NCBI GenBank assembly: GCA_019915135.1
Contig: JAHLMK010000004.1
Span: 868,001 to 932,000, forward strand
Direction: 5' to 3'
Source of the DNA: Strobilurus pachycystidiatus
Taxonomy: Eukaryota > Basidiomycota > Agaricomycetes > Agaricales > Physalacriaceae
Length of the DNA: 64,000 nt
The notes below the pieces were generated by a model. The model was not told the DNA's origin. It did no database searches and saw only the letters and a list, made by a program, of their open reading frames with translations. Numbering within the stretch: position 1 is the stretch's first letter; every line of letters begins with the position of its first letter. The position numbers and the translations under genes were made by a program. Below, one piece after another: positions 24,907 to 42,754 of this stretch.

Positions 24907-25259
24907 CAGAATTGAGATTCAGGAAGCCATTTGAGGCGGGACCAGGGCGGGAGGCGCGCGGCGGGACCACGTGAGTAAGTCACGTGCAGGTTTGGAACCG
25001 GTAAAAAACCGGTTTGAAACCTGGCGGGGCGGCGGAGTAGGTAAAATACAGGTATGATATTACCCCCAGAGGTTTTTTCCACTACCCTAGTGCAGTGTGA
25101 ACTTTTGTTTGGACTTTGAATAGGGTAGTGGGGGAAACCTATGTTTCCCCCCGAAAATGGTTTGACTCGGTAACTTACCGGTTTGGAACCGGTTCCAAAC
25201 CTCGGAGGGCTGGGAGGGTAGGTTTGGAACCTGTCACATGATAAAGTCATGTGATCTGC
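24907..25259. repeat. Repeat family R, copy 2
   Basis: Begins near TTGAGGCGGGACC, then CACGTGAGTAAGTCACGTG, GGTTTGGAACCGGT, ACCGGTTTGAAACCTGGCGG, and ends with GGTTTGGAACCTGTCACATG and GTCATGTGATCTGCGGGC. It is itself an imperfect inverted repeat: GC-rich ends with CACGTG-type palindromes, and a centre with a TTTTCCACTACCCTA / TAGGGTAGTGGGGGAAA palindrome. No coding capacity. Confidence 0.6.
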
Positions 25260-25413
25260 GGGCAGGAGACTGCCAAAGCATATGTGGCGTGAAATGACGA
25301 GGAAGATACTTGTAGACTGACCAATTAGACCTGCAAGTCCCTGTGGCAGCTACTACTGGACTCATTGGGACTAGAGAACTCAAACACAAAAACTCAGAGA
25401 GCTATGTGTGGCT

Positions 25414-25733
25414 GCCAGATTGAGGCGGGACTGGGGCGGGCGGCGGGCGGCGGGCGGCGGGATCACGTGAAAAAAGCACGTGAGAGTTTGGAACCGGTTC
25501 CAAACCGGTATCAAACCTGGCGGGGCGGCGGGGTCGGTACCAAACCGGTTTAGTACCGCCTCTGGAGGTTTACCTAGGGTGGCGAAGTAAACCATAGGTA
25601 TCAGTACCGGACCGGTTTGTGACGGTAAGTTACCGGTAAGTTACTGGTAAGATACCTCGGCCGCTGGAGGGTAGGTAAGTTACCTCCACGTGATGCTTTC
25701 ACGTGATCATTTCACGTGAGAGGCGGGCGGCGC
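25414..25733. repeat. Repeat family R, copy 3 (interrupted by the LTR retrotransposon)
   Basis: Starts like copy 2 (TTGAGGCGGGACTGGGGCGG) with four GGCGGGC units. It then has GATCACGTGAAAAAAGCACG, GGTTCCAAACCGG, GGTTTACCTAGGGTGGCGAA, GGTAAGTTACCGG, and three CACGTGA palindromes before the LTR. The LTR element inserted at GCGC near its right end. Confidence 0.6.
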
Positions 25734-27403
25734 TGATACGCAGGGTACTATTCCAGTACTAGAAACGGGGAATTTTGCGATTCCTGAACAGCCCAAAGAC
25801 CTTAGGAACCTCCAGTCAAGTACTTAGGATAGAGCACGCAGGAGTTACTGCCTTGACGCGGGCAAGCCTCCAGGACAAGGTCCAGGCGCCTTAACAAGTC
25901 CTTTAGGACAGGCGCGATCGAAACCTTCGATCACCTTCATCCGAATATCCTTATCCGCGCGTTGGATCCCTTTCAAGATCCCGTACCTTTGCGTGTACCT
26001 TGTACTACAGACGATGTGCTATAACCATTCGCACCCAAGGAGGGTCCAAAGGTCTCCAGGCGGTTCAGTTTGAGCGACCCAAGACCTGCGCACCTCAACC
26101 CAAAGACCTGGAAGGTCCCGAAATAGTTCAAGGACGTCACAACCCTTTTGGGGAAACAATCTTCGGAGCTGTCAAGGACTCCGAACCGACGCCTTCCGCT
26201 ATGCCGATCAATCATGATCCACGATCAAGGACCACCCCGAAAGCAGGGTGTATTACCACTTTAAGAAAGCACTCCCCCGTAGTGTCTGCGCTCGAAAGGA
26301 CGTTCTTAACGATCTCCATCCAACCTATTCACAAGAAAGCAGGTGTCCGTAGGACCTTGCAACATAAAGATACCTAAGGATCGAAGTCCTTATCGGACCT
26401 TGATCTCCTGGGCACAAGGATTGTACCATACCGCCAAGGTGGCGTATATGGCTAAAGGACCAAGCGGCCTGTCCGCAGTTGTTTCGACCAGGGATAGCCA
26501 ATAAGAATCCAGCTCTTGTATGACTCGAAAGTCCGATGTATCCGATCCTAGAATAGATGCTTACTCAGTAGGAACCCACCAGTAGTATAAAAGGGCCCAA
26601 AGGACCCATATTTCGGTAGCTTAGAGCCCCCTCCAGTAGCCGCTAGTCAGACGCAGCCGTTGTAGTGAATCTATCTCGAGTTTCGACTCATTTCTGCAAA
26701 GTACCCAAAGACCCCAAAGACCTTTCCAAGATTTAAAGACATCAGGTGTTGCCAAACTCCTTGAAAGACTCAAAAGAACCTTATTCCGACGTACCAAGTC
26801 GAGTACCAACGAATCTACTTGGTGTTAGAACCTTGTATTCGCAAGAAGGCCGGTTTGCAAGTGGTTCTGCCCTGCACTCACGCTCTTTCGTGAAGTACTT
26901 TCCTTTGAGGAATAAGTTGAGTTTGAACGAGTGTTGTCAACGTCTGAGACACCTTTCGGAACCTTTGGTCCCGGTGCAAGACACTAGAAGTTTGGTTTAA
27001 GTGCAAGAAGGAGTCCTTATCGTTAGCAGTCCAGTGGCGTAAAACCTGCGGTAGCGGCCTGACGATTCCAAGACAAAGTCCTTGTACACCAGAGCACTTG
27101 ATAGGTAGAAGCTACATTGCCTCGCGCTGTTTAAGGTCTTCATACGTCAAGAGGTTCGGCCTACGACTTCAAGGTTTTCTTGTGTCATTTCGATCAGAAT
27201 CCCTACACCCCCAAAAACAACTCGTAGTTTAACTACAGCGATTCGGAATACATCTCTATTTCTCCATTACCCAAAAGCACCTTGTTCTCTCGAACCTTTG
27301 TGCACCCCGTCTCCCTTACAAGGAGTGTTAGTTGTGATAAGGATTGATAGTGTGGTTAGACGATAGCTTCTTTTTCAGAGGTCTATTCCGAACTTGCACA
27401 TCA
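25734..27403 (+). repeat. 5' LTR (1670 bp)
   Basis: TG..CA termini. A TATA box lies at offset 852. Downstream sequence to the end of the LTR has no ATG. Open frames within it are start-codon-less and have no domain, so I treat it as non-coding regulatory sequence. Confidence 0.92.
26586..26593 (+). promoter_or_regulatory. TATA box of the 5' LTR
   Basis: TATAAAAG in the context CAGTAGTATAAAAGGGCCC. The same box is at 41782-41789 in the 3' LTR at the same offset. Transcription would start about 30 bases downstream, dividing U3 (about 0.88 kb) from a long R-U5. Confidence 0.65.
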
Positions 27404-27408
27404 TATTT

Positions 27409-27426
27409 TGGAGCCCACCGCGAGGG
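27409..27426 (+). other. Candidate primer binding site
   Basis: TGGAGCCCACCGCGAGGG begins five bases after the 5' LTR. It starts with TGG as expected for pairing with the CCA end of a tRNA. I could not assign the tRNA. Confidence 0.55.
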
Positions 27427-27470
27427 GGTGTAAATTTTGATTTCGAAAGAGACTTCTAAGTCGACCTTGA

Positions 27471-29339
27471 GATCGGAATCTCCATAAACAAAAGACACTG
27501 GCTGCAAGGAACTCTGGTCGTTACACCAACAGCCAGAACCGCGCAAATCCACAACCACCAAAAGGAGACCCAGTTATTGCCGGATCTTCAAATCCAGCAA
27601 CCTCTGGTATCACTAGTCGCCTAAGAAGCAATCGCCCAATCGCCGGCTCACTTTACAACGGTTTACCTAGTGAAGTAGCTCAAGCACAGCGACGCTTTGC
27701 AGACCCGACTACTCCCAAGAACCAAAAGAAGAAACGTACGCAAGTACCACCTTCAACACCTACTGCCTCTAGGATCAGATCTTCTTCAGATCCTGAATCA
27801 CCTTCGAGAACTCCAACCAGTACCCGAAGACATTCGGACTCTAGAACTTCGCCTAGTCCCGCATTTGTGACACCTTTCGGAAGTCCTTTGACTGACCTTG
27901 AAGACCCCGAAAGTCCAGAACCTATTACCCCCTTCATTGACTTTAACCCGTCTACCCAAAACACGATACCAGTTCCAGTAATGGCAGTACGAGCAATTGT
28001 ACCTTCCGAGGAACTTAGCGCTGAAGCTAGAGGCGAGATCCAAGGCAAGAAGATCCCGATACCATTCTCAAGGGATGCCCCAAAGTTCAAGGGACACTCC
28101 GGAGACGATGTGAGGGAATTCTTCACGATGTGCAACTGGATCTTTGACCAGACAGGAATCACCGAACAAGGTACTAAGTTGGAAGTAGCGGCGCTATACG
28201 CCGGCCACGAACAACGCCTAAGGTGGCACAAAAACCCAGACTACCTGAAAGGTGTCTGGGCGGACTTCCAAGAATCAGTTCTTTCCTCATACTCAAAGGG
28301 AAAGAACGATCCTACGTACGTCCCGGCCGACCTAAAGGATGCCTTGGACCCGTACCTGGCTAGGCCCGTAGCCAACAAGCAGAAATGGGAAAGCTTTCAG
28401 CGCGAAGTACTCCATATCATGGGGCATCTTATCACGTCGGGAGAACTTACCAATAAGGGTGCTATAGAAGATATCAAGTCCTCTATCACAGAGGGAGTTT
28501 GGCATAATGTCCTTGGGGACCTCAGGCGCGATGCGAAAGCTAATGCAACAGCCGGGACCACCCCCATCTATGACTTCACGTTGTCAGAGGTTGAGGCAGC
28601 AATCTCCAACTACTTCTTGACCGATAAATGGATGAGCAAGAGTGCGAAGGATAGTCCTTATAACAGAGAACTTATTCCCGCCTCTACCACCCGAATCAAG
28701 ACAGAGGAGTTGGATGAATACCTGAATAGGGTAGCTAGCCTTCAGGACATTATCCAGAAAGGAGAAAAGGAACGCGAAGAGGCTCGTAAGGCTGATCAGA
28801 AGATGATGGCAGAACTTCTCCATACCTTACAGCGTGGAGGTCCGCAAGGACTCCGCACCCAAGGTTTTGTACAAGAAGCCTCGCCGATTTATCTACAAAC
28901 ACCTGCTCAAGGTGTCTCAGTCCCGACCAACTTACCGAATGGACTCTACAAAGCTCCTCCGGGCGCGTTCCCAGGAAACAAGTTCGTAGTTAACGATGGA
29001 AGGTGTTACTTCTGTCGTGAACTAGGGCATATTGTAGCGAATTGTCCTACAAAGGAAATGTGCGAAAGCAATGGTCATATCTACAAGCCTGGTGGTACAA
29101 ACATATATCATGTAACGAACGGAACTACTAGTCAACCTATTCAAAGGGTTAGTCCCAAGCAGCCTCTCAGCCCTTGGGAACAAGTTCAGAAGTTTCAACA
29201 AGAAAATGCACCTAAGGTATCGGCGTTCCAATCTCAAGAAGATGAGTTCGCACCTGAGGTCGCGATGTATGTTCAAACCCCAACCCAAGAAGAAGAGTTT
29301 GCCCCCGACGCCTATCAGGGTTTCGGCAGGGCTCGATGA
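27471..29339 (+). CDS. gag: gag: capsid and nucleocapsid polyprotein
   Basis: First ATG is at 27981 (MAVRAIVPSEELSAE), but the frame is open without stops from 27471. The upstream 170 codons are rich in S, P, T, R and K. The central part, with FKGHSGDDVREFFTMCNWIF and RLRWHKNPDYLKGVWADF, resembles gypsy capsid. A lysine/glutamate helix (residues near GEKEREEARKADQKM) follows, then a single CCHC knuckle CYFCRELGHIVANC. The stop TGA at 29337-29339 overlaps the ATG of the next frame in ATGA. If the frame begins upstream of 27981, initiation must be at a non-AUG codon or come from splicing; the sequence alone does not decide. Confidence 0.8.
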   Translation, partial: DRNLHKQKTLAARNSGRYTNSQNRANPQPPKGDPVIAGSSNPATSGITSRLRSNRPIAGSLYNGLPSEVAQAQRRFADPTTPKNQKKKRTQVPPSTPTASRIRSSSDPESPSRTPTSTRRHSDSRTSPSPAFVTPFGSPLTDLEDPESPEPITPFIDFNPSTQNTIPVPVMAVRAIVPSEELSAEARGEIQGKKIPIPFSRDAPKFKGHSGDDVREFFTMCNWIFDQTGITEQGTKLEVAALYAGHEQRLRWHKNPDYLKGVWADFQESVLSSYSKGKNDPTYVPADLKDALDPYLARPVANKQKWESFQREVLHIMGHLITSGELTNKGAIEDIKSSITEGVWHNVLGDLRRDAKANATAGTTPIYDFTLSEVEAAISNYFLTDKWMSKSAKDSPYNRELIPASTTRIKTEELDEYLNRVASLQDIIQKGEKEREEARKADQKMMAELLHTLQRGGPQGLRTQGFVQEASPIYLQTPAQGVSVPTNLPNGLYKAPPGAFPGNKFVVNDGRCYFCRELGHIVANCPTKEMCESNGHIYKPGGTNIYHVTNGTTSQPIQRVSPKQPLSPWEQVQKFQQENAPKVSAFQSQEDEFAPEVAMYVQTPTQEEEFAPDAYQGFGRAR

Positions 29340-30508
29340 AGGAAGGAGTGCAGTTAGCACATACTCCTCCGGAGAGCCAGTTCACTGTAGAAACTCGTCA
29401 GACTCGTCAGAGCGCAAAAGCACCTAGTGCACCTGTGGATTCAACTCCACAAAACAAGGTAACCTCATGGCCTAAGGACCGGGTGTCCGTGGTCATTCCA
29501 AAAGCAGCGCCGCCTAAGGTATCATTCTCCAAGCCGGAAGTCACTCAAGAAGTAGAACCTGTTGACCAGGACCTTCTTGACGAAGTCCTGGCGATGGAAG
29601 AACCCGACCCGGTGCCGCAACCAAAAGCAGATTCAACTCTGCCAGAAAAGAACCAACCAAAGGTTCAACCTAAGGAACCTAAGGGCAAGAGTTTCCAACG
29701 TCGTAGCCTGGCAGAAGAACTCTTGCACAAGAATCCCAGTTGGCGTGAAGCCTGGAAGTTCTTGTTACCCGAAGCCCTACTAGCTACCAACCCCCCTTGG
29801 CAGCAGAGCATTTCGGACTTCATCAGGAAACGCAACACGCCTGTGGCTGTATTCAAGACGGAAGAAGTGGCCGATACGGTCCAAGATCACTTCCAACCCG
29901 AGCTGTATTCAGTCAACTTTCATGAGCAAGGTGATTTACCTATTGGTGGAATTGTAGTCCACGATGCGGTAGAACAGTTTGTAAACCTTTCCGGAGGTCA
30001 CTATACTGGTCCCTTTCAAATGATAAGTGGCAATATGGCGCCGGAAAATGCAGATCTACGAACCTTTTGGCCCTTGATCAACAAGAATGGTAAAAAGGAG
30101 AGTTTAGTGGATGGTGGGTCGCAGATCGCCTCCATTTCGCTCAAGGCAGCATTGGAACTAGGAATAGCCTATGATCCCACTTTCACCATTACTATGGAAA
30201 GTGCGGACAAGGGACGAACCAGTACCTTGGGATTGGCTCGTAACATACCTTTTGACTTTGAAGGAATTGTCTATTACCTTCAGTTGCATGTGTTGCAGGA
30301 TCCCGCCTATGAGGTCCTACTGGGACGACCTTTCGAGATCGTTTCAAACCTGGTCATCACCAACCTTCCCAACGGGAACGCAATCGGAACCCTTACGGAT
30401 AACACCAATGGGAAGAAGTTATCGCTACCTTCTTACCGTCGAGGACAGATCCCAAGACATATGATTCCAGGGGGACAAACGGGTTTTCACGGGAACCTAA
30501 GGACGTAG
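29336..30508 (+). CDS. pol: pol, part 1: linker and aspartic protease
   Basis: Starts in ATGA overlapping the gag stop. The first half is a P/K/E-rich linker. The protease has SLVDGGSQIASISLKAALEL, in which the usual D-S/T-G is D-G-G, and a later EVLLGRPFEIVSNLVI flap-type end. The frame stops at 30506-30508, while the next frame is open across this stop and continues the protein pattern (REPKDVGNSYEEA). One base has probably been lost near 30470-30490, so protease and reverse transcriptase were one reading frame. Confidence 0.75.
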   Translation: MKEGVQLAHTPPESQFTVETRQTRQSAKAPSAPVDSTPQNKVTSWPKDRVSVVIPKAAPPKVSFSKPEVTQEVEPVDQDLLDEVLAMEEPDPVPQPKADSTLPEKNQPKVQPKEPKGKSFQRRSLAEELLHKNPSWREAWKFLLPEALLATNPPWQQSISDFIRKRNTPVAVFKTEEVADTVQDHFQPELYSVNFHEQGDLPIGGIVVHDAVEQFVNLSGGHYTGPFQMISGNMAPENADLRTFWPLINKNGKKESLVDGGSQIASISLKAALELGIAYDPTFTITMESADKGRTSTLGLARNIPFDFEGIVYYLQLHVLQDPAYEVLLGRPFEIVSNLVITNLPNGNAIGTLTDNTNGKKLSLPSYRRGQIPRHMIPGGQTGFHGNLRT

Positions 30509-30528
30509 GAAACTCCTATGAAGAAGCC

Positions 30529-32181
30529 GTGTTGATCCTTGAAAGGTCACCAGAAGGAAACATCGAAGTAAAGCAAAGTTGGATACCTGGTGATAACAGG
30601 GAGACCTTCGGGGAAGGGGACTTAACGTCCTTATACATGAAGAAGTCACCCAATAGGGTTCATCAGGCAGCCAAACGGCTAAGGAAACAACACGCCTTTA
30701 TGCATGCATCGATGCATCAAGCATCGACACATATGACTGTCCCAAAACATATGGTGACACCTACGGGACTATTAAAGGTCCCAACCAAGACTCAAGGCTT
30801 TCGCAAGGTATTCAATATCAACCAGATTGCGGAAGACCAAGAAGAACTTAAGTCCTACGCTACTGCGACTTTGAACCTCTTTTATGGGGTACCAAAGGAG
30901 CTAGAACAAGTCTTTACGGGCTTGTCGGTAACCTTACCAAAGGATTACATGGCGGAGGCCCAACAGGAGTTCCTAAGGTTGGAAAGTCAGATCCCTAAGA
31001 GGGGTGTATTCGTAGGAAAGAAGTACAAGCCAGTGGCCTTGAAAACCAAAGCTCACCTTGGAACCTTACCTGAAGAATTCAGGATCAAGCGCCACATTCA
31101 TGGAGACCCACTAGCTGGGATGCCGGAATTAGTACCTGATCCACCACCCTTCGTACCCACAGGTAGGTATACTGCCGAAAGGAGGGAACAGATACAAGCC
31201 GACCACGTCGGGGACTTCCTGACGGATGCAGAAAGACGGATTATAGACTCCATCTTCTGTAACCAGAACGAAGGCTTTGCCTGGGAAGAATCTGAGAAAG
31301 GACACTTCAAACCAGAGTTCTTTCCACCAGTGGATATCCCGGTAATACCGCACACACCTTGGGTGTTAAGGAATATACCAATTCCACCAGGAATCTATGA
31401 CGAAGTCTGTAAGATTATCAAACACAAACTAGACTCGGGCGTGTATGAGCCTTCGAACTCCTCATACCGCTCCAGGTGGTTCTGTGTTGTGAAGAAGGAT
31501 GGAAAGAAACTTCGCCTAGTGCACAGTCTGGAACCACTCAATGCGGTGACCATTGCGCACTCAGGGTTACCTCCAGCCACGGAGGAACTAGCGGAGTCCT
31601 TTGCAGGACGAAGTTGTGGAGGGACCTTGGACCTGTTCGTTGGATATGACGAACGGCTCCTTGCCACCGCGTCTCGCGATATGACCACCTTCTCAACACC
31701 TTACGGAGCGTTAAGGTTAAAGACCTTGCCAATGGGCTGGACTAATTCAGTACCTATCTTTCATGACGATGTTACAACGATTCTCAAGGATGAAATACCA
31801 GCCTTCACCAGACCTTATATCGACGATGTGCCCGTCCGCGGGCCCGCCACGCGATATGAACAAGCTGATGGTACCTACGAAACGCTTCCAGGTCATCCTG
31901 AAGTAAGGCGTTTCGTTTGGGAACACCTTGTGAACATGAACAGAATCATACAACGAATGAAACATGCCGGAGGGACCTTTTCTGGTCACAAGGCTATCAT
32001 TTGTGCAGAAGAAATTGTGGTAGTGGGACATGTCTGTACCTACGAAGGTAGGAAGCCAGCCGAAGATCGTGTTAAGGTGATCTCGGATTGGCCCCCTTGT
32101 AAAGCGCTCACGGAAGTCCGTTCATTCTTAGGAACAGCTGGAATCTTCAGAGCATTCGTAAAGGACTACTCTAAGAAGTAG
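30529..32181 (+). CDS. pol: pol, part 2: reverse transcriptase
   Basis: The frame is open from at least 30481, so there is no natural start. It contains the basidiomycete gypsy linker GVFVGKKYKPVALK and LPEEFRIKRHIHGDPL, then RT motifs: PHTPWVLRNIPIPPG, YEPSNSSYRSRWFCVVKKDG, LRLVHSLEPLNAVTI, LKTLPMGWTNSVPIFHDDV, and the catalytic box YIDDVPVRGP. It reaches the thumb/connection FLGTAGIFRAFVKDYSKK, where the MITE cuts the frame at 32179. Confidence 0.82.
   Translation: MLILERSPEGNIEVKQSWIPGDNRETFGEGDLTSLYMKKSPNRVHQAAKRLRKQHAFMHASMHQASTHMTVPKHMVTPTGLLKVPTKTQGFRKVFNINQIAEDQEELKSYATATLNLFYGVPKELEQVFTGLSVTLPKDYMAEAQQEFLRLESQIPKRGVFVGKKYKPVALKTKAHLGTLPEEFRIKRHIHGDPLAGMPELVPDPPPFVPTGRYTAERREQIQADHVGDFLTDAERRIIDSIFCNQNEGFAWEESEKGHFKPEFFPPVDIPVIPHTPWVLRNIPIPPGIYDEVCKIIKHKLDSGVYEPSNSSYRSRWFCVVKKDGKKLRLVHSLEPLNAVTIAHSGLPPATEELAESFAGRSCGGTLDLFVGYDERLLATASRDMTTFSTPYGALRLKTLPMGWTNSVPIFHDDVTTILKDEIPAFTRPYIDDVPVRGPATRYEQADGTYETLPGHPEVRRFVWEHLVNMNRIIQRMKHAGGTFSGHKAIICAEEIVVVGHVCTYEGRKPAEDRVKVISDWPPCKALTEVRSFLGTAGIFRAFVKDYSKK
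32171..32178. repeat. 8-bp target duplication of the MITE, left (CTAAGAAG)
   Basis: CTAAGAAG at 32171-32178 recurs at 32641-32648, directly flanking the inserted segment. Confidence 0.85.
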
Positions 32182-32640
32182 ACATGACCACGAATAAGGA
32201 GTAAAGGAGAATATTCATGAATATATTCCTAATCTTATTCATGAATATGAATATGATGAATATATTATATTCGTGAATAAGAATAAGTTGACGAATATAG
32301 AATATGAACCTTCAAGTTCACATAATCCTCAACTCATTCATGAGTGTCTGACAATACTGAATTCTCAGTACTGAAGACAAGTTTATGATAAATTTAGATG
32401 CTGTTTGAATGATTTATAGTTCATTCAATAACTTTAACTGTGATTTTGAGTGACATTGAGATGATTATACTTGTATATTCGTGAATATTCATGAATAAAA
32501 GCAAAATATTCGCAGTGAAGATTAAGTTGACGAATAAGATTAAGAGTATATTCATGAATAACAATTATGACCCTTGGAGGGGGGATTATTCGTGTGCATG
32601 AATAAGAATATACTCGAATATATATTCGTGGACATCTCTA
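32179..32640. mobile_element. hAT-type MITE inserted in pol (462 bp)
   Basis: Ends TAGACATGACCACGAATA and the complement of TAGAGATGTCCACGAATA form 18-bp inverted repeats with two mismatches. CTAAGAAG is duplicated on both sides. The interior is AT-rich, full of ATTCATGAATAT palindromes, and has no coding capacity. The pol frames on the two sides agree exactly if one copy of the duplication plus the insert is ignored. The 8-bp duplication and TAGA-type ends point to hAT transposase as the mover. Confidence 0.88.
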
Positions 32641-32648
32641 CTAAGAAG

Positions 32649-34844
32649 GCGTTACCTTTGACCAGGTTAACCAAAGACATTACCAAGTTCAGATGGACAG
32701 ACGAGGAGCAGGAAAGTATGGATACCTTAAAGGAAGCTATACGAACTTGTCCGATGCTGAAACCACTGAATTATGAATGGTCCACGCCAATCACGCTGTC
32801 GGTAGACACCTCTTACCAGGCAGTAGGTTTCTATCTGTCCCAGGTAGATCCCAAGGACCCTAAGAAACGATACTTTGCCAAGTTTATGTCTCTGACATTG
32901 AACGAAAGAGAGGCAAGGTACTCGCAAGCCAAGCGAGAACTATTCGGGCTCTTCAGAGCTCTGTCCGCGTGCAAGTACTACCTTCTAGGGTGTAGAAAAC
33001 TAGAAATTGAAGTGGATGCAAAATACATCAAGGGCATGTTATCCAACGTGGACTCCTTAGCGAACGCAAACCTGCAAAGGTGGGCTGAGGAGATCTTGAT
33101 GTATCACTTCACGCTTGTACACGTACCAGGAAAGGTTCATGGCCCGGATGGTTTAAGTCGCCGTCCAGCCTCAGAGCATGATGTAGTAGTACCCAGACCT
33201 CACATAAACATAGAGGATGACGAGGTCAATACCTTTGAGTACCAGGAGCCTAAAGGTCTGCCTATAAAGGAGCAGCCGTTAGACTTTGACACTTTCAGGA
33301 ATGACATCGACAGTAGGGGAGGCTATGTCCAGGAAATAGTACGGAGTCCTTTACCAGACCATATAAAGGTTTCTAAAGCGGTAAGGACTTCGGGACTAGT
33401 CAATGTTAAGGATATCGAAGGTTGGATGCATATCACGGAGTTCCCGGAGCTCAATAAGAGCAAAAGGGAGCGTTTGTGGGAGACCTATTTGCCCAAACTT
33501 CAACCTTACTTACAATCGGAAGATGTACTTGAGGACGAAGACTTGGAGAAATGGAGCAAAGACTTCTTTGTCCAGCATGAAAGGTTATACCGAAACCATT
33601 CGGACTCCCACCCCCGTCGAGTGCTACTTCCAAATGAACGAATCCCGGTTTGTAAAGCTCTACACGACCGGGCAGGACATAAAGGACAATATTCCGTGTT
33701 ACAACTCATCATGAAGCGATTCTGGTGGCCAGGTATGGAGGTCGACATACGATGGTATGTAAGGACTTGCGTACTATGCCAGAAACGCCAGAAACGTAAC
33801 ATAAAGGTTGCACCAACAATTACTTCGACTCCAGGTATCTACGAAAGGGCTTATATAGACACCTTCCGGATGCCTAAGGCAGGAGAGGAATCTATTCGAA
33901 AGAAACGACCTTCAAAATGGGCCGGCTTCAATGCTGTGACCGTCGCAAGGTGTGGATTAACAAGTTGGCCAGAGGCAAGGGCTCTCAAGGAAGAGACCGC
34001 CGAGTCGCTGGGAGAATGGATCTTCGAGGACATTCTATGCAGGTGGGGTTGTATCAAGGAAATTGTAACCGACAATGGGCCAGCAATCAAGAAGGCTTTA
34101 GTACATATTGAACAGAAATATGGTATTACAGGTATCTTGATCACGGCGTACAATAAGCAAGCCAACGGAAAGGTTGAACGAGGACACTGGGATATCCGTC
34201 AATCTCTCTTCAAGGTATGCAGGGGTAAACCCGAGCAATGGCCAGAGTTCCTACATGAGGTCCTTTGGGCAGAGCGCATTACCATAAAGAGGAGTCTAGG
34301 TACTTCAGCGTTCCAGGCAGTAACCGGTTGTGAACCAATCATGCCAATGGACCTGGAGGAATTGACTTGGCTGGTCGAAGCACCAGGCCGACTGGTCTCC
34401 CATTCGGACCTTATTGCCTTCCGAGCTAGGCAGCTCATCAAGCACAAAGAAGATACTGTCAAGCTAAGGTCAAAGGTCCTTCTAAATAAACAGAAGGCCG
34501 CGGCGAAGTTCCTAGAGGATTTCCAGAACAGTATCCCTCGCTACAAATTCAAAACTGGTGAACTAGTACTAGTAAGAAACACTAGGATCGAATCAGAAAT
34601 GAATGCGAAGTTCAAGGAAAGGTTTATGGGACCTTACGCGGTAGTAACAAGGACCTCGGCAGGAAACTATGTGGTCTGCGAGTTGGACGGGACGATCTAC
34701 AAAGACAAGATAGCTCAGTTCCGTGTAATACCTTTTGTATCGCGACGAGATCCTATAGACCTTGGGAAACAGTTTTTTGATCGGCTACACTTCATAAGTA
34801 AACCGATCACGAAGACCTTAGATGTCCTTGCTAAAACTACGTGA
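32649..34844 (+). CDS. pol: pol, part 3: RNase H and integrase
   Basis: The genuine coding begins right after the MITE (ALPLTRLTKDITKFRW). RNase H residues are visible in SVDTSYQAVGFYLS (D), YSQAKRELFGLF (E) and KLEIEVDAKYIKGML (D). The integrase has the HHCC finger in LHDRAGHKGQYSVLQ and CVLCQK. The DDE core is AYIDTFRMP, IVTDNGPAIKK and KQANGKVERGHWD, and a GPY/F-type MGPYAVV follows. No chromodomain is seen after it. This open frame is preceded in-frame by MITE sequence, so it has no natural start of its own here. Confidence 0.85.
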   Translation, partial: ALPLTRLTKDITKFRWTDEEQESMDTLKEAIRTCPMLKPLNYEWSTPITLSVDTSYQAVGFYLSQVDPKDPKKRYFAKFMSLTLNEREARYSQAKRELFGLFRALSACKYYLLGCRKLEIEVDAKYIKGMLSNVDSLANANLQRWAEEILMYHFTLVHVPGKVHGPDGLSRRPASEHDVVVPRPHINIEDDEVNTFEYQEPKGLPIKEQPLDFDTFRNDIDSRGGYVQEIVRSPLPDHIKVSKAVRTSGLVNVKDIEGWMHITEFPELNKSKRERLWETYLPKLQPYLQSEDVLEDEDLEKWSKDFFVQHERLYRNHSDSHPRRVLLPNERIPVCKALHDRAGHKGQYSVLQLIMKRFWWPGMEVDIRWYVRTCVLCQKRQKRNIKVAPTITSTPGIYERAYIDTFRMPKAGEESIRKKRPSKWAGFNAVTVARCGLTSWPEARALKEETAESLGEWIFEDILCRWGCIKEIVTDNGPAIKKALVHIEQKYGITGILITAYNKQANGKVERGHWDIRQSLFKVCRGKPEQWPEFLHEVLWAERITIKRSLGTSAFQAVTGCEPIMPMDLEELTWLVEAPGRLVSHSDLIAFRARQLIKHKEDTVKLRSKVLLNKQKAAAKFLEDFQNSIPRYKFKTGELVLVRNTRIESEMNAKFKERFMGPYAVVTRTSAGNYVVCELDGTIYKDKIAQFRVIPFVSRRDPIDLGKQFFDRLHFISKPITKTLDVLAKTT

Positions 34845-35183
34845 CCTTGAGTACCCAGAAATGAACCAAAGGTTCTAAGAAAGCCAAGGTACCATACCAG
34901 ATGACGGGGACGTCATCAGAAAAGTAAAGAGAGAATAGAGGGACATCGGTCCATTTATTCAAAGACTATAAAAATTTTATTTAAGACTTATTCCGTGCCT
35001 AGCTGGCTACAAAGGTAGCTAAGGTAGCATTGAACTAAGGACAGAATAAGGAAGCAAGACAAGGCACGAGGCATCAGGGAAGTGGCGGGGTGCGAATAAA
35101 GAAAAGCTTAAAAATGATAAGCCCGTAGGCGATGTGGTAAGCGCAGAAAAGGAAGCACCACTCACCGAACAACCACCACGACC

Positions 35184-37296
35184 ATGCCCCCTCAAGAGAA
35201 CGACCCCACTGTGGACGCGAAGGTAAGTACCTGGCGCGATCACAGCGTAGAACGAGGCGGTGAACTTACTTACCAAAAGGAGCAGTCACCGCCGCCATCG
35301 CAGCCGCCGACGAAAGACAACCAGGAGCCTCCCGCAGCCCAGGAGGAGAAGGAAATGGAGGTACAAGGGCAGGAGCAGGTGCGTAGTAACGAAAAACGCG
35401 TTGAGAAACGGCGAAACTCACCACTGCCACCCCCTCTGCTAGCTCCCGTCCATTCCCTGCGAAGCCAGGCCGGACCACGTCAAAATGACGCGTCCCCTGT
35501 TCGACTACAGCGGTTTCTTGACGAACAGGACCGCGCCGCCCGAACTAGACGCAGGTATCAGCCTGCACCTGGCCGAGTCACTGTGCGCCAGTCCAGGAGC
35601 AACCCGAGATATCCTGCAGGAGGCCGGATACCAAGGATACCTCCAGAACGGTGTCTTTTGGCTAACATTCCAGGACGCGCTGAAGGCGAAACCAGCAAGC
35701 AAAGCCACTCCGCTCGAACGAGTCGAGACCGCGCTCAGCACGGCGTGGCGCACCACCTCCGCCTACAAAAAGCAGGTCCGCCCCACCCGCGCAACCACTT
35801 TCCTAAACAACGACCGCGTTGCCCCAGAGCTCGCGATCCGGCTCTCAGAAGACGACGCCCAGCGCTGTTTTCTGGAGTTGGACCATCTCTGGATGTTCGT
35901 GCATGACCAGGACCGCGCCAATCTGTTCTGGGGCGCCTTGATAGTGGAGATGCGCAAGCAGCGCGACGACCTCCCCATCCACAGGTCGTTCCTCAAGACG
36001 ATGGATAACCTCATCGAAAGCGCGATCGCCGAGCTGGGCATCGCAGACTACCAGCGCGACGAAACACCGAGTCTCGACAGCAAGGTCGACGACGAGGGCA
36101 CTCCGCGCCCCACCATGCAGCAACTGGCGCAGGAGGCGTCGCCCAGTCCCCACGACTCGCGAATCCCGTCACCAGCGCCCGCCTCGCACCACGAACCCAC
36201 GCCCGAGCCCGAGATGGAACCCCCCCAGCGTCGACCATACGTCGCGGCAGGGAAGGGTGGCCCCAAATCGGTTACCAAGTACGTCGCTCACCGTACCGTC
36301 GCACCTGTAATCTTTGCTAATGCCCCGGCCAGGCCGAAGGCCGTCGTCGTCAAAGTGGAACCGAAAGACAAGGACGTCGCCCCCACCCGAAAGACCTCGG
36401 TCGCGCGCGCCACCACCGGTGGAAGCCACAAGCGCAAGTTCGTCGAGGAGGAACCGGAGGAGGAGGACGAGTTGGAAGAAGACGCCGAAGCCAGCGACGA
36501 GGAGGAGGACGACTTCGTCCTCGATGTACGCGACAAGACCAACCCGCGTATTCCCCTCCACCGCGACGATGGCTTCTGCGTCCCGTGCATCAAGCAGAAG
36601 TTGGGTTGCACCTACTTCAGGATCCACGCCACGCCCGCGGAGAGGAACAACAGCTTCACCTGCGACCAGTGCAAGGAGAAGGACGGGCAGCACGGTCCGT
36701 GCTGGGTCGCATGGAGGCGAAGTCAGGTCCCCGAGCCATGGAAGGAGGTCGCGCTCAAGGTTCGCGCCCAGTTGCAGGCCGTGGCAAGGAGTAAGCCCGA
36801 TTCCCAGATCCGGGCCCGGCGCCACCAGGACTACTCCGACGCCGCGCAAGCTATCGCAAAAGAAGCGGACCAGCGGTGGAAGGAGGAGAAGCAGAGGAAG
36901 AAGGACGAGCCCCCGGCGAAGCGCCGTCGCGTCGAGAGCACGAAAGGAAAGAAGGGCAAGGCGAAGAAGGAGGAGACGTCGGACGAAGAGGGCACTGGCG
37001 ACTCCGACGTCGAGGAAATCCAAGCGCCCCGTACCCGCCTCCAGAAGGGAAAGGTCAGCGCCGCCCCGCCTCCCGCCTCCACCAAGTCCTCGAAGGGGGC
37101 CACCACCTCGATCAGCACGGCCCAGCAACAGGACAAGGGTGAAGGAGCCAGCCGTCAAGGCGCGTCGTCCTCCACCTCCGCTAGCCGTGTCAACCCCGCC
37201 GAGGACGTGGACAAAGTCCTGGCGTTGTACTTCTCCCTGAGTGAGAAGAGCCGCCGGAAGTTTAGGAAAGTCGCCGAGATCGCGGTGGGACGCTAG
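35184..37296 (+). CDS. Sense cargo gene of the retrotransposon: protein with a Zn2Cys6-like cysteine cluster
   Basis: Exons 35184..35222, 35280..35378 and 35443..37296 give 663 residues; both introns are phase 0 with GTAAGT and GTGCGT donors. The N-terminus is P/E/Q-rich. The core FDYSGFLTNRTAPPEL and helical HLWMFVHDQDRANLFWGAL are unknown. A long acidic stretch (EEEPEEEDELEEDAE) precedes a cysteine cluster C-x2-C-x6-C-x17-C-x2-C-x9-C at about residues 425-472. This resembles fungal Zn2Cys6 DNA-binding clusters but has a longer central loop. After that come basic nuclear-localisation-like runs (KRRR, KGKKGKAKK) and a C-terminal SEKSRRKFRKVAE. It is much more GC-rich than gag-pol, which suggests capture from a host gene. 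DNA binding is inference. Confidence 0.72.
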
Positions 37297-37684
37297 TAGC
37301 GTCCCGCCGTCATATCTTTTTTTTTATATACAAGAATACTAGTCACAGTGCCAAAAGGACACTCTCATATACGCATCGCCCGCCCCCGTTGTATTTTATA
37401 TAAAAATTTACAACTTCTTGAACTCAAAGAACCGTGTGAAAAACACTAAGGAAACAAGAACAAGGACCTTAGTTAAAACCTTAAGTCAAGGGGAGAGCCC
37501 AGGACTCTCCTTGATATACCAAGGGTCGCAAAGGTCAGAGGTTAGGGACCTTGGAAGTCAAAAAGGACCACAAGGAACTGCGTTTACGAGTAAGGTAATA
37601 CAGGCAAAAGCAATGTGACTATAAGGAACATTCGTAAGGAAGAAAAGAAAGGCGACCTTTAGGTCAAAAGAAGTCAACTAAGGA
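37297..37684. other. Spacer between convergent cargo genes
   Basis: Contains T-runs and TATATA (37317-37330 and 37390-37410) suited to 3' end formation of the sense cargo gene, then AAGG-rich sequence. One 66-codon open frame is present, without recognisable features. Confidence 0.5.
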
Positions 37685-38848
37685 CTAAGCAAAACGACTC
37701 CAATCAGGAGGGACCGCAAGGTTCGCGAGGCGCGCATAGAAAGGTCCTGCGTGGCGAAGGTCGATTGCTAACATACTAGCAGCAAGGAGTTCGTAGTCTA
37801 CTTCGGTGGCCTCCGACCAGTCGATGAGCCAGAGTAGTGGATCGATGATAGGCAGCGACTGGTTGGGGCGCTGGAAACACAGAAGTTACAAACGGACCTC
37901 AAACTACGAAGTTGTTCACGGACCCGATTGGCGGGAAGGTCAATCTCAGGGATCAACCGACGCATATTGGGAGGTCTATCCAACGCGTAGACGTCGTCCC
38001 AGCCATAAAGAGCAGAGTTCTGACGCTGGAACTCTGGCCACCACTTCATAACCGTGACAAGGTCGGCAGGAAGGTCCCCATACTGGACAGGAAGGACCTT
38101 CAGGTCGTCAGACCCGATGTAAAGCGAGCGAAGGAGTGTGGAAAAGCCAGAGTAACCACCAAAGTGGGCCTCGACCTACGTCTAAGGTCAGCGCCGACCA
38201 CAAGACATGAAAGGAAAAGACCAGGTTTAACTCACCATGAAAGGTCCGATGAACTCTTGGGTAAACCAAGGGTGACTCGCAAGGATGTCCATGTTAAGGT
38301 CCCCCAGGTGGAAGCGGGCGCCTTCACCGTCAAGGGTATTGCCTTTGGCGAACCAAGCTTTGCAAAGTTCGACGGCGGTGTAGTACAAAGGAAAGAAGTG
38401 CGCCTTGAAGCCGTGAGGAATGGCCCCGTTCTGGAAGTGAAAAGCGGGTTCCCAGATATAACGAAAGCGGACCTAAGGACCATCCGTTAGTCAAGAAAGG
38501 TGTCGAGGCGAAGTCAACTAGACCTACCAGGACGTGCAAAAGGTAGCGCAAGGTTGGAACGTCTAGAGGTTCGTCGCGACCAAAGGCATGAACCGGAGGC
38601 TTGAGCTGGGGAAGGAGGCGAGTGTCGTCCTCCGTAGCTAAGGTCCCATCCGGATGACGGACTACCGCAACGAAGTAGCGTGTATAGTTGTACATCTCCA
38701 TGGCGCAGCTCAGCGCAAGGTCCGCTGTGACTAAGTCATGTTGAAAGGAGGTCAAAGGCGAGCGAAGTCGAACGCCTTGAATGCGGGTATCTGAAAAGGA
38801 AGGCAGGACGGGCGCGGGCATGATCAAAGATGAGATTCCTGTCGCCAC
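37685..38848 (-). CDS. Antisense cargo gene A of the retrotransposon: orphan 331-residue protein
   Basis: Four exons: 38848..38528, 38472..38236, 38175..37924 and 37870..37685. All three introns are phase 0 and 53-60 bases long, and each splice shifts out of frames that would otherwise stop. Examples are LLHVL to VRFRYIWEPAFHFQ, and EFIGPFM to VEAHFGGYSGFSTL. Other landmarks are YFVAVVRHPDGTLATEDD, FKAHFFPLYYTAVELCK, YGWDDVYALDRPP and LLWLIDWSEATEVDY. Aromatic-rich, globular, no signal peptide or clear membrane span, no domain I recognise. Intron 3 uses a GTCCGT donor, which is unusual. The gene is antisense to gag-pol. Its intact frame over four exons argues that it is maintained by selection. 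Confidence 0.72.
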
Positions 38849-39196
38849 GACCGACTTAAAAGAAAACCTCCGCCAGTCAAGAAGGTCCGAACACGCCGAT
38901 AAAAGGACAAAGTTTAGGCGCCACCAATCTAAAGGTAGGTACGATCGGCGATAGCCGATCGAACTAAGTTCGATCTTAGGCCTACCAGGAGGCGGTCAGG
39001 AAACTTTGAGGGTTCAAATCGAAAGGAGTTGGATTATGCACCAACTGGGCCTAGAGTAGTCTAAGGAAACAAAGTGACTACCGCTCCTACAAGTAGAGAA
39101 GAAATCCGAAACCAGTATAAAGACGAAGTAGAGAAAAACTATGAGTAGTACTGGTTAAGACTTGGCGAAAGCTAAGCTAAAGAAGGACCTTGTAGT
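38849..39196. other. Spacer between the two antisense cargo genes
   Basis: About 350 bases holding the upstream region of cargo gene A and the 3' end of cargo gene B. A GATCGGCGATAGCCGATC-type inverted repeat lies near 38944-38961. No exon seen. Confidence 0.5.
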
Positions 39197-40731
39197 CTAC
39201 TGAGCCTGGTCTATCGCGTCTAAGGCCGAGATATAAAGGTCGCGAGTCGACTGCAAGACTTGGATACGACCCCAAATCTCGTTGAAGGTCGAGATAATGT
39301 CGTGCCGGTACTGGCGTTCCAAAATGACCAAGTTGGGCGAGATGTTGGGATCGTCAAGACCAGACAACCTTGACATACGCTTGTGGACTTGGGCCAAGGC
39401 AGCAGACAGACCATTGATGTACTGGTTCGCTAAGGGGAAGTAACCAGGAATCAACAAGGCAAACCAAGGAGCGAGGAAGAAGCACCTTACCGCCTTCAAG
39501 TTGTTTAAGAACGACGGGTTCGACCCCAAAGGTCGAAGGCCGGGCCGCCTTTACAACCCGGCGAGCGTTCTCATCGTTAAGCTTACGCTTAGGAGGAGCT
39601 TCTTGACCATTGATCGCGCCCAAGGTTTGAAGGGCTTTCTGGTAAACACGGGCGTTAATGTCCATACCGGGAAGAGCTGCGAAAGGAAGGTAACGGACGG
39701 AAGATGACTATTAAAGAAGTCATAAGGACGTCCGGGACAAACATAGGATTCAAAGGAACGTACCGCTTCGGCTTCCTTTGACAAGGAATTGGCGAGTTGG
39801 AGCTGGCGAAAGGCTTCAATAAAGGAAGATGAGACTGGCAAAGAAATTGAGCGCACAGTATCACCGACGACGACAACGGAGTCCTCACCGTCGCTCTCGC
39901 CAGCTGCCACATCGTCAGCCCAATTAAAGTACTCCGGACGAAAGAAGCGCGCACAAGAGTCGGGATCCATCGCGACGTCGCCGTCTCCCGCCTCGGCTCG
40001 TTTCTCCATGGCCTCGGTAACGGCCTCGGGCGATTTCTTTGTCTTCTAAGCGAAGACATCCAAAGGTTACAGTAGGAAACCGACGAGTAACGAACGGACA
40101 TACCTTGCCTTTCTCAAGCTTGTCCGGCTTGAAATAAGCGTTATCCGGATGCATAGGGTGACCCGGGGACAGGCCAGGGAAGTGGGCGTTAGACGCCTTC
40201 TTGCAGCTGCTCACCAAAGGTTGGAGGATATGAGCGATGTGGTGCGTCGGCGTCTGAGGGTGAATCCCCAGCAGGTGTACCAGCATCCCTACATAGAGGC
40301 GAAGGTTGAAAAAGAACACCGCCATGTCCGTCGACACCTTGGAACCATTCGGAAAGGTGCGAAGGTCATGGGCGACGGCCTAAAGAAAACAAGGACAGGA
40401 TGAAGTCAGGATCAGGAAAAGAACACAGCGAAGGAGTACACACAAGGACTCTCTCCATGATCTTGTCAACATAGCCGGTGATCTCCAGTGCCACGTCGGG
40501 ATTCGAACACGCCTTCTTGAGGTCCAGACGATGGACCTTGGGAATGATGAGCGTAAGATGCATGCCGAGGTACATAAGGAAGTCGGGTGTGTTGGCTGGA
40601 GGGTCGTAGTCGAGCGCATAAGCGACAAGACCAGCACCAAGGTCGCGCGTAGTGATCAGGTCCTTTGCGGACGGAACGTGCGGCGTTGTGGGAAGCAGTT
40701 TTGCGATGGGGGTCCAAGTTTTGGGAGCCAT
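39197..40731 (-). CDS. Antisense cargo gene B of the retrotransposon: orphan 432-residue protein
   Basis: Five exons: 40731..40444, 40379..40104, 40045..39730, 39676..39491 and 39429..39197. Splicing gives a continuous frame: MERVL to AVAHDLRTFPNG, KLEKGK to KTKKSPEAVTEA, then into LPGMDINARVYQKALQTLG, and LEG to ANQYINGLSAALAQ, ending DLYISALDAIDQAQ. Intron 3 needs a weak GTCCTT donor; the others are GTGTGT, GTATGT and GTAAGG. Contents include an acidic central stretch (DGDVAMDPDS, GESDGEDSVVVV) and helical ends that may form coiled coils. No known domain. It begins 198 bases from the 3' LTR, so its promoter lies against the polypurine tract and LTR. Confidence 0.7.
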
Positions 40732-40918
40732 GATAGGATAAAGGCAGGAATGAAAGGTCTGAGGACAAGTCCCAGAACCTTTTATAACGGAACGAAGTTA
40801 GGCAAAAGAGGGTCCATCGGGCGATAGAAACCAAAAGGGGACTTCGTCACGGCGGCCTGGTACCCAGGATAAAGGTTCTGAACCACCAAGGACTATGTCG
40901 CGGACGACATTTCATAAG

Positions 40919-40929
40919 TCAAGGGGAGA
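40919..40929 (+). other. Polypurine tract before the 3' LTR
   Basis: Purine-rich AAGGGGAGA abuts the TG of the 3' LTR, as expected for the plus-strand primer of reverse transcription. Confidence 0.7.
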
Positions 40930-42599
40930 TGATACGCAGGGTACTATTCCAGTACTAGAAACGGGGAATTTTGCGATTCCTGAACAGCCCAAAGACCTTA
41001 GGAACCTCCAGTCAAGTACTTAGGATAGAGCACGCAGGAGTTACTGCCTTGACGCGGGCAAGCCTCCAGGACAAGGTCCAGGCGCCTTAACAAGTCCTTT
41101 AGGACAGGCGCGATCGAAACCTTCGATCACCTTCATCCGAATATCCTTATCCGCGCGTTGGATCCCTTTCAAGATCCCGTACCTTTGCGTGTACCTTGTA
41201 CTACAGACGATGTGCTATAACCATTCGCACCCAAGGAGGGTCCAAAGGTCTCCAGGTGGTTCAGTTTGAGCGACCCAAGACCTGCGCACCTCAACCCAAA
41301 GACCTGGAAGGTCCCGAAATAGTTCAAGGACGTCACAACCCTTTTGGGGAAACAATCTTCGGAGCTGTCAAGGACTCCGAACCGACGCCTTCCGCTATGC
41401 CGATCGATCATGATCCACGATCAAGGACCACCCCGAAAGCAGGGTGTATTACCACTTTAAGAAAGCACTCCCCCGTAGTGTCTGCGCTCGAAAGGACGTT
41501 CTTAACGATCTCCATCCAACCTATTCACAAGAAAGCAGGTGTCCGTAGGACCTTGCAACATAAAGATACCTAAGGATCGAAGTCCTTATCGGACCTTGAT
41601 CTCCTGGGCACAAGGATTGTACCATACCGCCAAGGTGGCGTATATGGCTAAAGGACCAAGCGGCCTGTCCGCAGTTGTTTCGACCAGGGATAGCCAATAA
41701 GAATCCAGCTCTTGTATGACTCGAAAGTCCGATGTATCCGATCCTAGAATAGATGCTTACTCAGTAGGAACCCACCAGTAGTATAAAAGGGCCCAAAGGA
41801 CCCATATTTCGGTAGCTTAGAGCCCCCTCCAGTAGCCGCTAGTCAGACGCAGCCGTTGTAGTGAATCTATCTCGAGTTTCGACTCATTTCTGCAAAGTAC
41901 CCAAAGACCCCAAAGACCTTTCCAAGATTTAAAGACATCAGGTGTTGCCAAACTCCTTGAAAGACTCAAAAGAACCTTATTCCGACGTACCAAGTCGAGT
42001 ACCAACGAATCTACTTGGTGTTAGAACCTTGTATTCGCAAGAAGGCCGGTTTGCAAGTGGTTCTGCCCTGCACTCACGCTCTTTCGTGAAGTACTTTCCT
42101 TTGAGGAATAAGTTGAGTTTGAACGAGTGTTGTCAACGTCTGAGACACCTTTCGGAACCTTTGGTCCCGGTGCAAGACACTAGAAGTTTGGTTTAAGTGC
42201 AAGAAGGAGTCCTTATCGTTAGCAGTCCAGTGGCGTAAAACCTGCGGTAGCGGCCTGACGATTCCAAGACAAAGTCCTTGTACACCAGAGCACTTGATAG
42301 GTAGAAGCTACATTGCCTCGCGCTGTTTAAGGTCTTCATACGTCAAGAGGTTCGGCCTACGACTTCAAGGTTTTCTTGTGTCATTTCGATCAGAATCCCT
42401 ACACCCCCAAAAACAACTCGTAGTTTAACTACAGCGATTCGGAATACATCTCTATTTCTCCATTACCCAAAAGCACCTTGTTCTCTCGAACCTTTGTGCA
42501 CCCCGTCTCCCTTACAAGGAGTGTTAGTTGTGATAAGGATTGATAGTGTGGTTAGACGATAGCTTCTTTTTCAGAGGTCTATTCCGAACTTGCACATCA
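40930..42599 (+). repeat. 3' LTR (1670 bp)
   Basis: Same length and ends as the 5' LTR. By eye the only differences are a C to T near 41257 and an A to G near 41408. Confidence 0.92.
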
Positions 42600-42754
42600 G
42601 CGCGGTGGGCGGCAGCGGGATGGTGTGGGGAGGTGTGGCAGGGCTCCAGGCATCCAGAGAGTGTAGTATTTGGGAATAACAGACTTTTAATTGGCAATTA
42701 AAGCTCGAATATGATGATTCTGGGGGGCGGAACAAAAATCTTGTGTTATTTTGA

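Follow-up and report, generated by a model that had tools for sequence, protein, structure and literature searches.

Genes beyond gag and pol are already known from long terminal repeat (LTR) retrotransposons. Plant gypsy elements of the Retand, Grande and RIRE2 type are described as having conserved antisense open reading frames (ORFs), for which a regulatory role has been proposed, and amplified deletion forms (PMC11963269, PMC7264820); an antisense ORF with a TRP28 domain between pol and the 3' LTR is given as a trait of the Retand type. Boty-like elements of Botrytis cinerea are reported to carry the antisense gene brtn (PMC8365987). The CERV protein of the C. elegans element Cer1 is described as a nuclear protein with a nuclear localization signal and a Cys-rich region that is required for the export of unspliced genomic RNA (PMC10309623). 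For Ty1 and Ty1' of Saccharomyces, it was reported that diverged gag sequences are exchanged by recombination and that this affects self-encoded copy-number control (PMC7055915). A survey of fungal LTR retrotransposons described complex elements with many additional domains and ascribed them to multiple insertions at one locus (PMC3248453). In the present study, a 64,000-nucleotide stretch of the Strobilurus pachycystidiatus genome was analysed (assembly GCA_019915135.1, contig JAHLMK010000004.1, positions 868,001 to 932,000); this stretch is called the window, and coordinates are positions in it. It was confirmed that positions 25734-42599 are a Ty3/gypsy LTR retrotransposon with three additional spliced genes, designated A, B and C, between integrase and the polypurine tract. 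Evolution has singled out one of the three: gene A has been swapped, in old and diverged versions, between otherwise nearly identical copies of the element.

The 51.8-Mb genome of the fungus, the one genome sampled, was searched with patterns for the LTR start, for the junction of the LTR with the primer binding site (PBS) and for the junction of the polypurine tract (PPT) with the LTR, each with at most three mismatches, and the junctions were paired by contig and strand. The 21-base LTR-start pattern was found at 143 places and its reversed control at one; genome-wide, there were 78 LTR/PBS (5') and 74 PPT/LTR (3') junctions. The window subfamily comprised 25 copies with an internal length of 13.00-13.07 kb, 12 of 7.9-8.9 kb, three of 10.1 kb and one of 11.9 kb, together with the window copy, W (13.5 kb internal), some longer copies and seven unpaired 5' junctions. 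The sister subfamily, in which the LTRs begin with TGATACGCATTG, comprised nine copies with an internal length of 13.19-13.23 kb, eight longer copies and four unpaired ones. Seventeen copies, covered in full or nearly so, were compared, namely, W, 10 of the 25 like-sized copies (F), two of the 12 short copies (S5 and S11), the three 10.1-kb copies (M1-M3) and the 11.9-kb copy (M4); one sister-subfamily copy was covered in part. The gag ORF (622-627 aa) was found in 15 of the 17 copies, the protease-region ORF (416-420 aa) in 14, and pol as a single ORF of 1310-1331 aa in 12. The W family has expanded recently. F3, F7 and F10, the LTR pairs of which were cut short, and F4 and F5, which have a common middle LTR, were excluded from LTR dating. 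The latter two form a tandem array of the order LTR-internal-LTR-internal-LTR at C3:1154135-1185428 (L015-L018) with CCGC at both outer ends, that is, one insertion.

The original prediction, made from the window alone, proposed a search for further copies with the same LTR, to see whether each has the three-gene block at the same place. Within this genome, all 10 copies fetched from the 25 of the 13.0-kb-internal class were found to carry it there. These copies lie on five contigs, and their target-site duplications (TSDs) agree wherever both flanks are readable; against such evidence, the idea that the block is an assembly artefact or a one-off insertion deserves practically no credence.

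The block does not vary evenly. In 500-bp windows, the mean pairwise identity of 11 copies was 83-90% across 35404-37403 and 88-93% in the pair of windows bordering it, whereas all windows outside the gene A block and its edges showed 95.5-99.2%. The hypervariable block thus delimited by pairwise identity extends approximately from 35000 to 37690 and contains gene A, which lies on the forward strand at 35184-37296 (exons 35184-35222, 35280-35378 and 35443-37296) and encodes 663 aa. The mean synonymous divergence (dS) was 0.433 in A, compared with 0.066 in B, 0.043 in C and 0.064-0.097 in gag and pol, and eight gene A haplotypes were distinguished among 15 copies at a 1% cut.

The distances in gene A did not follow those in the rest of the element. 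Between gag-pol and B-C, the rank correlation of distances was 0.62 (Mantel p 0.0015, n=12), whereas A distances gave -0.03 with gag-pol (p 0.48) and 0.12 with B-C (p 0.24). Removal of the tandem duplicate F5 changed these values to 0.61 for gag-pol and B-C, -0.12 for gag-pol and A, and -0.02 for B-C and A. Individual pairs showed the same pattern: F3 and F8 differed by 0.8% in gag-pol and by 16% in gene A, F3 and F4 were identical in gene A and 1.7% apart in gag-pol, and F6 and F9 differed by about 2.5% on both sides of the gene and by 0.6% within it. If gene A simply mutated much faster in place, differences limited to one block would be expected, and this is what was seen. However, identity in A between F3 and F4 and a 16% difference between F3 and F8 run counter to such hypermutation, as do the 9491 of 15666 pairwise differences that fall at third codon positions and the transition/transversion ratio of 1.68, so that this explanation is highly improbable.

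The same disparity was found when matches were scored genome-wide (40 of 47 candidates for gene A and 40 of 84 for gene C). The scored gene A candidates ranged from 100 down to 82% identity to gene A of W. Five of 42 gene A matches (shorter than 1400 bp) and five of 40 gene C matches (shorter than 1300 bp) were dropped before pairing, after which A and C stood at the expected spacing in 30 elements. Gene C was at least 96% identical to that of W in 29 of them, and among these 29, within the candidates scored, gene A was at most 90% identical (83-90%) in 18. In the sister subfamily, gene C matches were 95-100% identical to the sister query, whereas the A proteins formed three groups, with identities to the query of about 98-100%, 85-86% and 36-38%, in addition to one 78/99% mosaic. 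Compared with the sampled sister copy, two others, on C1 and C27, were 98% identical in gene C but 36-37% in protein A. One divergent A of the sister subfamily was fetched. It was 33% identical to its sister A and 33-35% identical to the versions of the window subfamily, which in turn resembled a protein from a public contig (71%) more than they resembled either of the sister versions. Together, the copy comparisons showed that gene A is represented by several old and deeply diverged haplotypes, which reside in near-identical backbones and have been moved between them. A literature search of titles and abstract openings found no LTR retrotransposon with an accessory gene described as swapped or hypervariable, and the original prediction had missed the variability of gene A.

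Such a distribution could also arise as a neutral patchwork, in which a recombination-prone edge beside A and a reservoir of diverged relatives suffice, with no selection for diversity. This serious rival has a substantial, though lesser than even, chance of being correct. Mosaics within A fit it: at 36400, F10 is nearer W than F1 or F8, whereas most of its 35200-36100 stretch is nearer F1 and F8, and the 78/99% sister mosaic, on C6, also lies within A. In addition, a segment at the 5' edge of the A block is conserved between the subfamilies. On the other hand, B and C are likewise deeply split between the subfamilies, yet old haplotypes within the window subfamily occur in the A block only, and neutral patchwork would need many donors with similar edges each time.

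The gene models were examined across the copies. Gene B (322 aa) lies on the reverse strand at 37685-38821 and has four exons (38821-38528, 38472-38236, 38175-37924 and 37870-37685), and gene C (431 aa), also on the reverse strand, lies at 39197-40731 and has five (40731-40444, 40379-40104, 40045-39764, 39707-39491 and 39429-39197). The introns of the three genes are of the GT..AG type, 53-64 nt in length, and were kept in all copies compared except for one intron in M4; the three extra spliced genes that had been predicted between integrase and the polypurine tract were borne out. Frames were intact in 12 of 15 copies for A, 12 of 12 for B and 11 of 12 for C. The ratio of nonsynonymous to synonymous divergence (dN/dS) was 0.157 for A, 0.123 for B and 0.095 for C, compared with 0.103 for gag and about 0.06 for pol; copies with broken frames (F5, F9 and M4 for A, F2 for C) were left out of the respective calculations. 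These values show that A, B and C are under purifying selection across copies, and, given the low dN/dS, copies are selected for the three genes. A genome pattern search found no gene A lacking the first intron, with a pattern able to catch the spliced form in 14 of 15 copies. Therefore, the RNA that was reverse transcribed was unspliced there, although the introns of A lie in sense.

The sister-subfamily copy, in the part that was covered, contained A, B and C arranged and oriented as in W. The amino acid identity between the window and sister versions by tblastn was 31% for A, 44-56% for B and 49-53% for C, compared with 82-85% for pol; in the multiple alignment, gene A reached 36%. Because the same module is present in the sister subfamily, the three genes are ancestral; as the identities show, they have evolved faster than pol. 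Comparison of the subfamilies thereby showed the module to be an old part of the element and not recent cargo. The cargo-bearing retroelement of the original prediction is accordingly upheld insofar as the three genes move together, as seen in 10 of 10 copies, and not as regards the capture of cargo. The third-position GC content of gene A (0.79 at 35443-37296) greatly exceeds that of gag-pol (0.46-0.51) and of B and C (0.62-0.64), and the difference between A and gag-pol could be read as the mark of host genes captured as passengers. Against this stand the module in the sister subfamily, the purifying selection across copies and the finding that no more than 12 kb separates 59 of 62 gene A places checked from an element junction, so that host capture is quite improbable. 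The three remaining places are 12.3-17.5 kb from junctions; two are sister-type A at 98-99%, and one, on C18, is unexplained. The latter (C18:743882-744154) is a short match to gene A with 45% identity over 92 aa, the nearest element junction being 12.3 kb away. For the region of gene C exon 1, four relatives with 78-86% amino acid identity were found in public contigs. No Pfam family was found for B or C up to an E value of 1, the presence of a TRP28 model in Pfam being unconfirmed.

The original prediction would, by its own terms, have been refuted by full-length copies without the cargo. Such copies exist, namely, the 12 short paired ones, but their meaning is a different one. The short class is devoid of 35083-40174, and one deletion junction, 35082/40175, at which about 8 bp of microhomology are seen, was common to eight of nine copies sampled from the class, the ninth sample ending before the junction. 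Because the short copies share one junction, their class is a derived loss. In the 10.1-kb class (M1-M3), B and C are missing and A is kept. The LTR pairs of S5, S11 and M1-M3 showed 0-3 differences. Such derived copies lacking the genes are still young and make a natural comparison possible.

The features of protein A were then considered. In the fungal Zn(2)Cys(6) cluster, six cysteines are spaced as C-x2-C-x6-C-xn-C-x2-C-x6-9-C with n of 5-12. A six-Cys motif of this order, with a middle loop exceeding the family length, was found together with basic stretches in 11 of 11 A proteins aligned; DNA binding is unproved by these features. The cut-off of PF00172 was not reached by gene A: no family was reported for A of W, and the best score was 11.5 bits against a cut-off of 21, for one sister version. 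Within A, conservation is highest in the motif region (93% amino acid identity, with a ratio of nonsynonymous to synonymous proportions, pN/pS, of 0.09) and lowest in the N-terminal tail (75%). Protein searches with A, in which the 7997 candidates with the most words in common were scored for the whole protein and then residues 1-205 were used, matched only P0001 and P0002.

Position alone would allow gene A to be an env-like entry gene since it is sense, spliced and located between integrase and the PPT. However, the transmembrane segment of an envelope glycoprotein was not found in A as judged from hydropathy, the highest 19-residue Kyte-Doolittle (KD) value being 1.05, and basic runs and the six-Cys motif are present instead; an env-like role is therefore very unlikely. 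In gene C, a single moderately hydrophobic stretch was found (1.74, residue 117), but this gene is antisense.

Two hairpins follow pol directly (34900-34960, forward strand), on the 5' margin of the swapped block. They fold far better than shuffled sequences, with z values of -4.8 in W and -4.7 in the sister copy; since the two sequences are alike, these scores are not independent. The first hairpin was present in 11 of 11 copies aligned and the second in 10 of 11, having been deleted in M1. The hairpins are alike in both subfamilies, whereas the adjoining gene A differs.

Hypermutation, host capture, an env-like gene and an artefact were each rejected on the evidence given against them above. 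The explanation favoured is that A is an element-encoded nuclear factor and that template switching exchanges its versions, the diversity of which is maintained; resting on sequence comparison, it has about an even chance of being right. The recently expanded Ty3/gypsy family carries an ancestral module, sense A with antisense B and C, between integrase and the 3' LTR. The route of the swaps would be template switching, with reverse transcription passing from one genomic RNA to another packaged together with it. Protein A would be a nuclear, zinc-cluster-like factor acting on the RNA or DNA of the element itself, possibly by exporting unspliced genomic RNA in the way described for Cer1 CERV, or by controlling expression or copy number. 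Rare versions of A would have the advantage because common ones would be recognised by the host or by resident copies, and this advantage would preserve old diversity in A and not in gag, pol, B or C. Old, diverged versions of A swapped among near-identical copies hint that the element contends with its host or with competing copies.

Several observations weigh against this explanation. Copies without A, B and C (S5 and S11) and copies without B and C (M1-M3) have also multiplied recently, and this spread implies that the genes are unnecessary in cis. No 40-codon window of A reached a pN/pS ratio of 1, the maximum being 0.56 at residues 1-40, so that there was no direct sign of an arms race; purifying selection alone was seen in A, as neutral patchwork would have it. 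Scans of the A, B and C proteins against Pfam, among them B and C in spliced form and two A versions of the sister subfamily, returned nothing above the cut-off. Structure prediction for the main A exon, made with its two public relatives, gave a mean predicted local distance difference test (pLDDT) score of 38, which made the model unusable. The hairpins are constant across A haplotypes and one is missing in M1, which argues against a matched pair of A and hairpin. Finally, the Mantel tests were based on 11-12 copies.

By analogy with the immunity regions of temperate phages, it is conceivable, though rather unlikely, that A sets compatibility groups among copies, each version working with, or being limited by, its own kind. 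Common versions would then be self-limiting or recognised by the host, and copies would gain by template-switching in a rare version. If this were true, the element would hold a balanced polymorphism in an accessory regulator. The swapped gene A may serve as a testable handle on the function of accessory genes and on whether specificity groups are built by recombination among retrotransposons, as reported for Ty1 gag.

The remaining anatomy of W agreed in most respects with what had been predicted. W showed TG..CA LTRs with a TSD, a tRNA primer site and a PPT, as LTR retrotransposons do. The two LTRs (25734-27403 and 40930-42599) are 1670 bp each and differ at exactly two positions, both transitions, and they are flanked by the CpG-centred duplication GCGC (25730-25733, repeated at 42600-42603); equal length, two differences and GCGC had all been stated in advance and proved exact. 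The primer binding site (27409-27426) begins 5 bp past the LTR. Its 18 nt are those at the 3' end of a sequence present in 13 exact copies in the genome; the copy that was fetched is tRNA-Thr(CGT). On the forward strand, gag (27471-29339, 622 aa) contains a CCHC knuckle, for which the zf-CCHC match fell slightly under the cut-off, and is followed in an overlapping frame by the protease-region ORF (29258-30508, 416 aa), which has a weak gag-asp_proteas match under the cut-off. The reverse transcriptase (RT) part of pol (30403-32181) matched best the solved-structure chain 4ol8 (E 2.6e-12), and the Ty3-G Gag-Pol chain 7q5b was matched with E 6.1e-11. The part with RNase H and integrase (32641-34844) matched RT_RNaseH_2 (1.4e-16), RT_RNaseH (2.1e-15) and Integrase_H2C2 (8e-18). 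The domain order, RT, RNase H and the zinc domain of integrase, is that of Ty3/gypsy, and the placement of W was based on this order and on how the solved structures ranked as matches, Ty3-G being one of the best. The PPT, AAGGGGAGA (40921-40929), adjoins the 3' LTR, in agreement with the predicted arrangement of gag-pol and polypurine tract. A direct repeat of 130 bp (77% alike) is located immediately to the left of the element, at 24946-25571.

W had been regarded as complete. This holds for its structure and not for its coding capacity, because a 462-bp insert (32179-32640) splits pol between RT and RNase H and truncates the RT part, a break that the original prediction had missed. The insert is a repeat resembling a miniature inverted-repeat transposable element (MITE), with inverted ends and an 8-bp TSD, CTAAGAAG. 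Copy F4 is uninterrupted at this point. The repeat is AT-rich and also occurs at other places. Of 93 candidates, 40 were scored, and each of these matched over at least 443 of the 462 bp at 97-100%. It is also present within an LTR of copy F3. W is therefore young but not intact.

A second unusual trait of the W family is a strict preference for CpG-centred targets. The TSD had a central CG in 13 of 13 insertions with both flanks readable, F4 and F5 being counted once, and a further 10 of 10 5' flanks were also CpG-centred. All 23 sites were thus of the form A/C/G-CG-N, none starting with T, whereas CG begins at 6.5% of window positions outside the element. F3, F7 and F10, not readable on both sides, were left out of this count; the single readable flank of F7 and of F10 was also CpG-centred.

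Among described systems, the Retand, Grande and RIRE2 type shares with the W family its membership in Ty3/gypsy, a long region between pol and the 3' LTR, antisense extra ORFs and amplified deletion forms. The W family differs in having one sense and two antisense multi-exon genes, none matching Pfam at the cut-off, and in the swapping of haplotypes of one extra gene, which does not figure in the published accounts consulted for the Retand type (PMC11963269, PMC7264820). Boty-like elements are likewise fungal gypsy elements with an antisense extra gene, but only one such gene is described; the likeness is drawn from the descriptions. Cer1 CERV may be taken as the nearest functional guide for gene A since both are sense spliced ORFs between pol and the 3' LTR of a Ty3-family element, again a likeness drawn from the description. 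For Cer1, no counterpart of B and C appears in the description cited (PMC10309623). The giant LTR elements Ogre and Burro are also large and have extra ORFs; the W family, at about 16.4 kb with 13 kb internal, is under the 20-kb internal limit given for giant elements (PMC6431247). With regard to evolution, the exchange of Ty1 gag is the nearest guide for the swapped A, although the gene exchanged there is gag and not an accessory gene. Ty1 belongs to another superfamily, Ty1/copia. In contrast to the complex elements of the fungal survey, as they are described there, the extra genes of the W family are a fixed part of a multicopy Ty3/gypsy family (PMC3248453).

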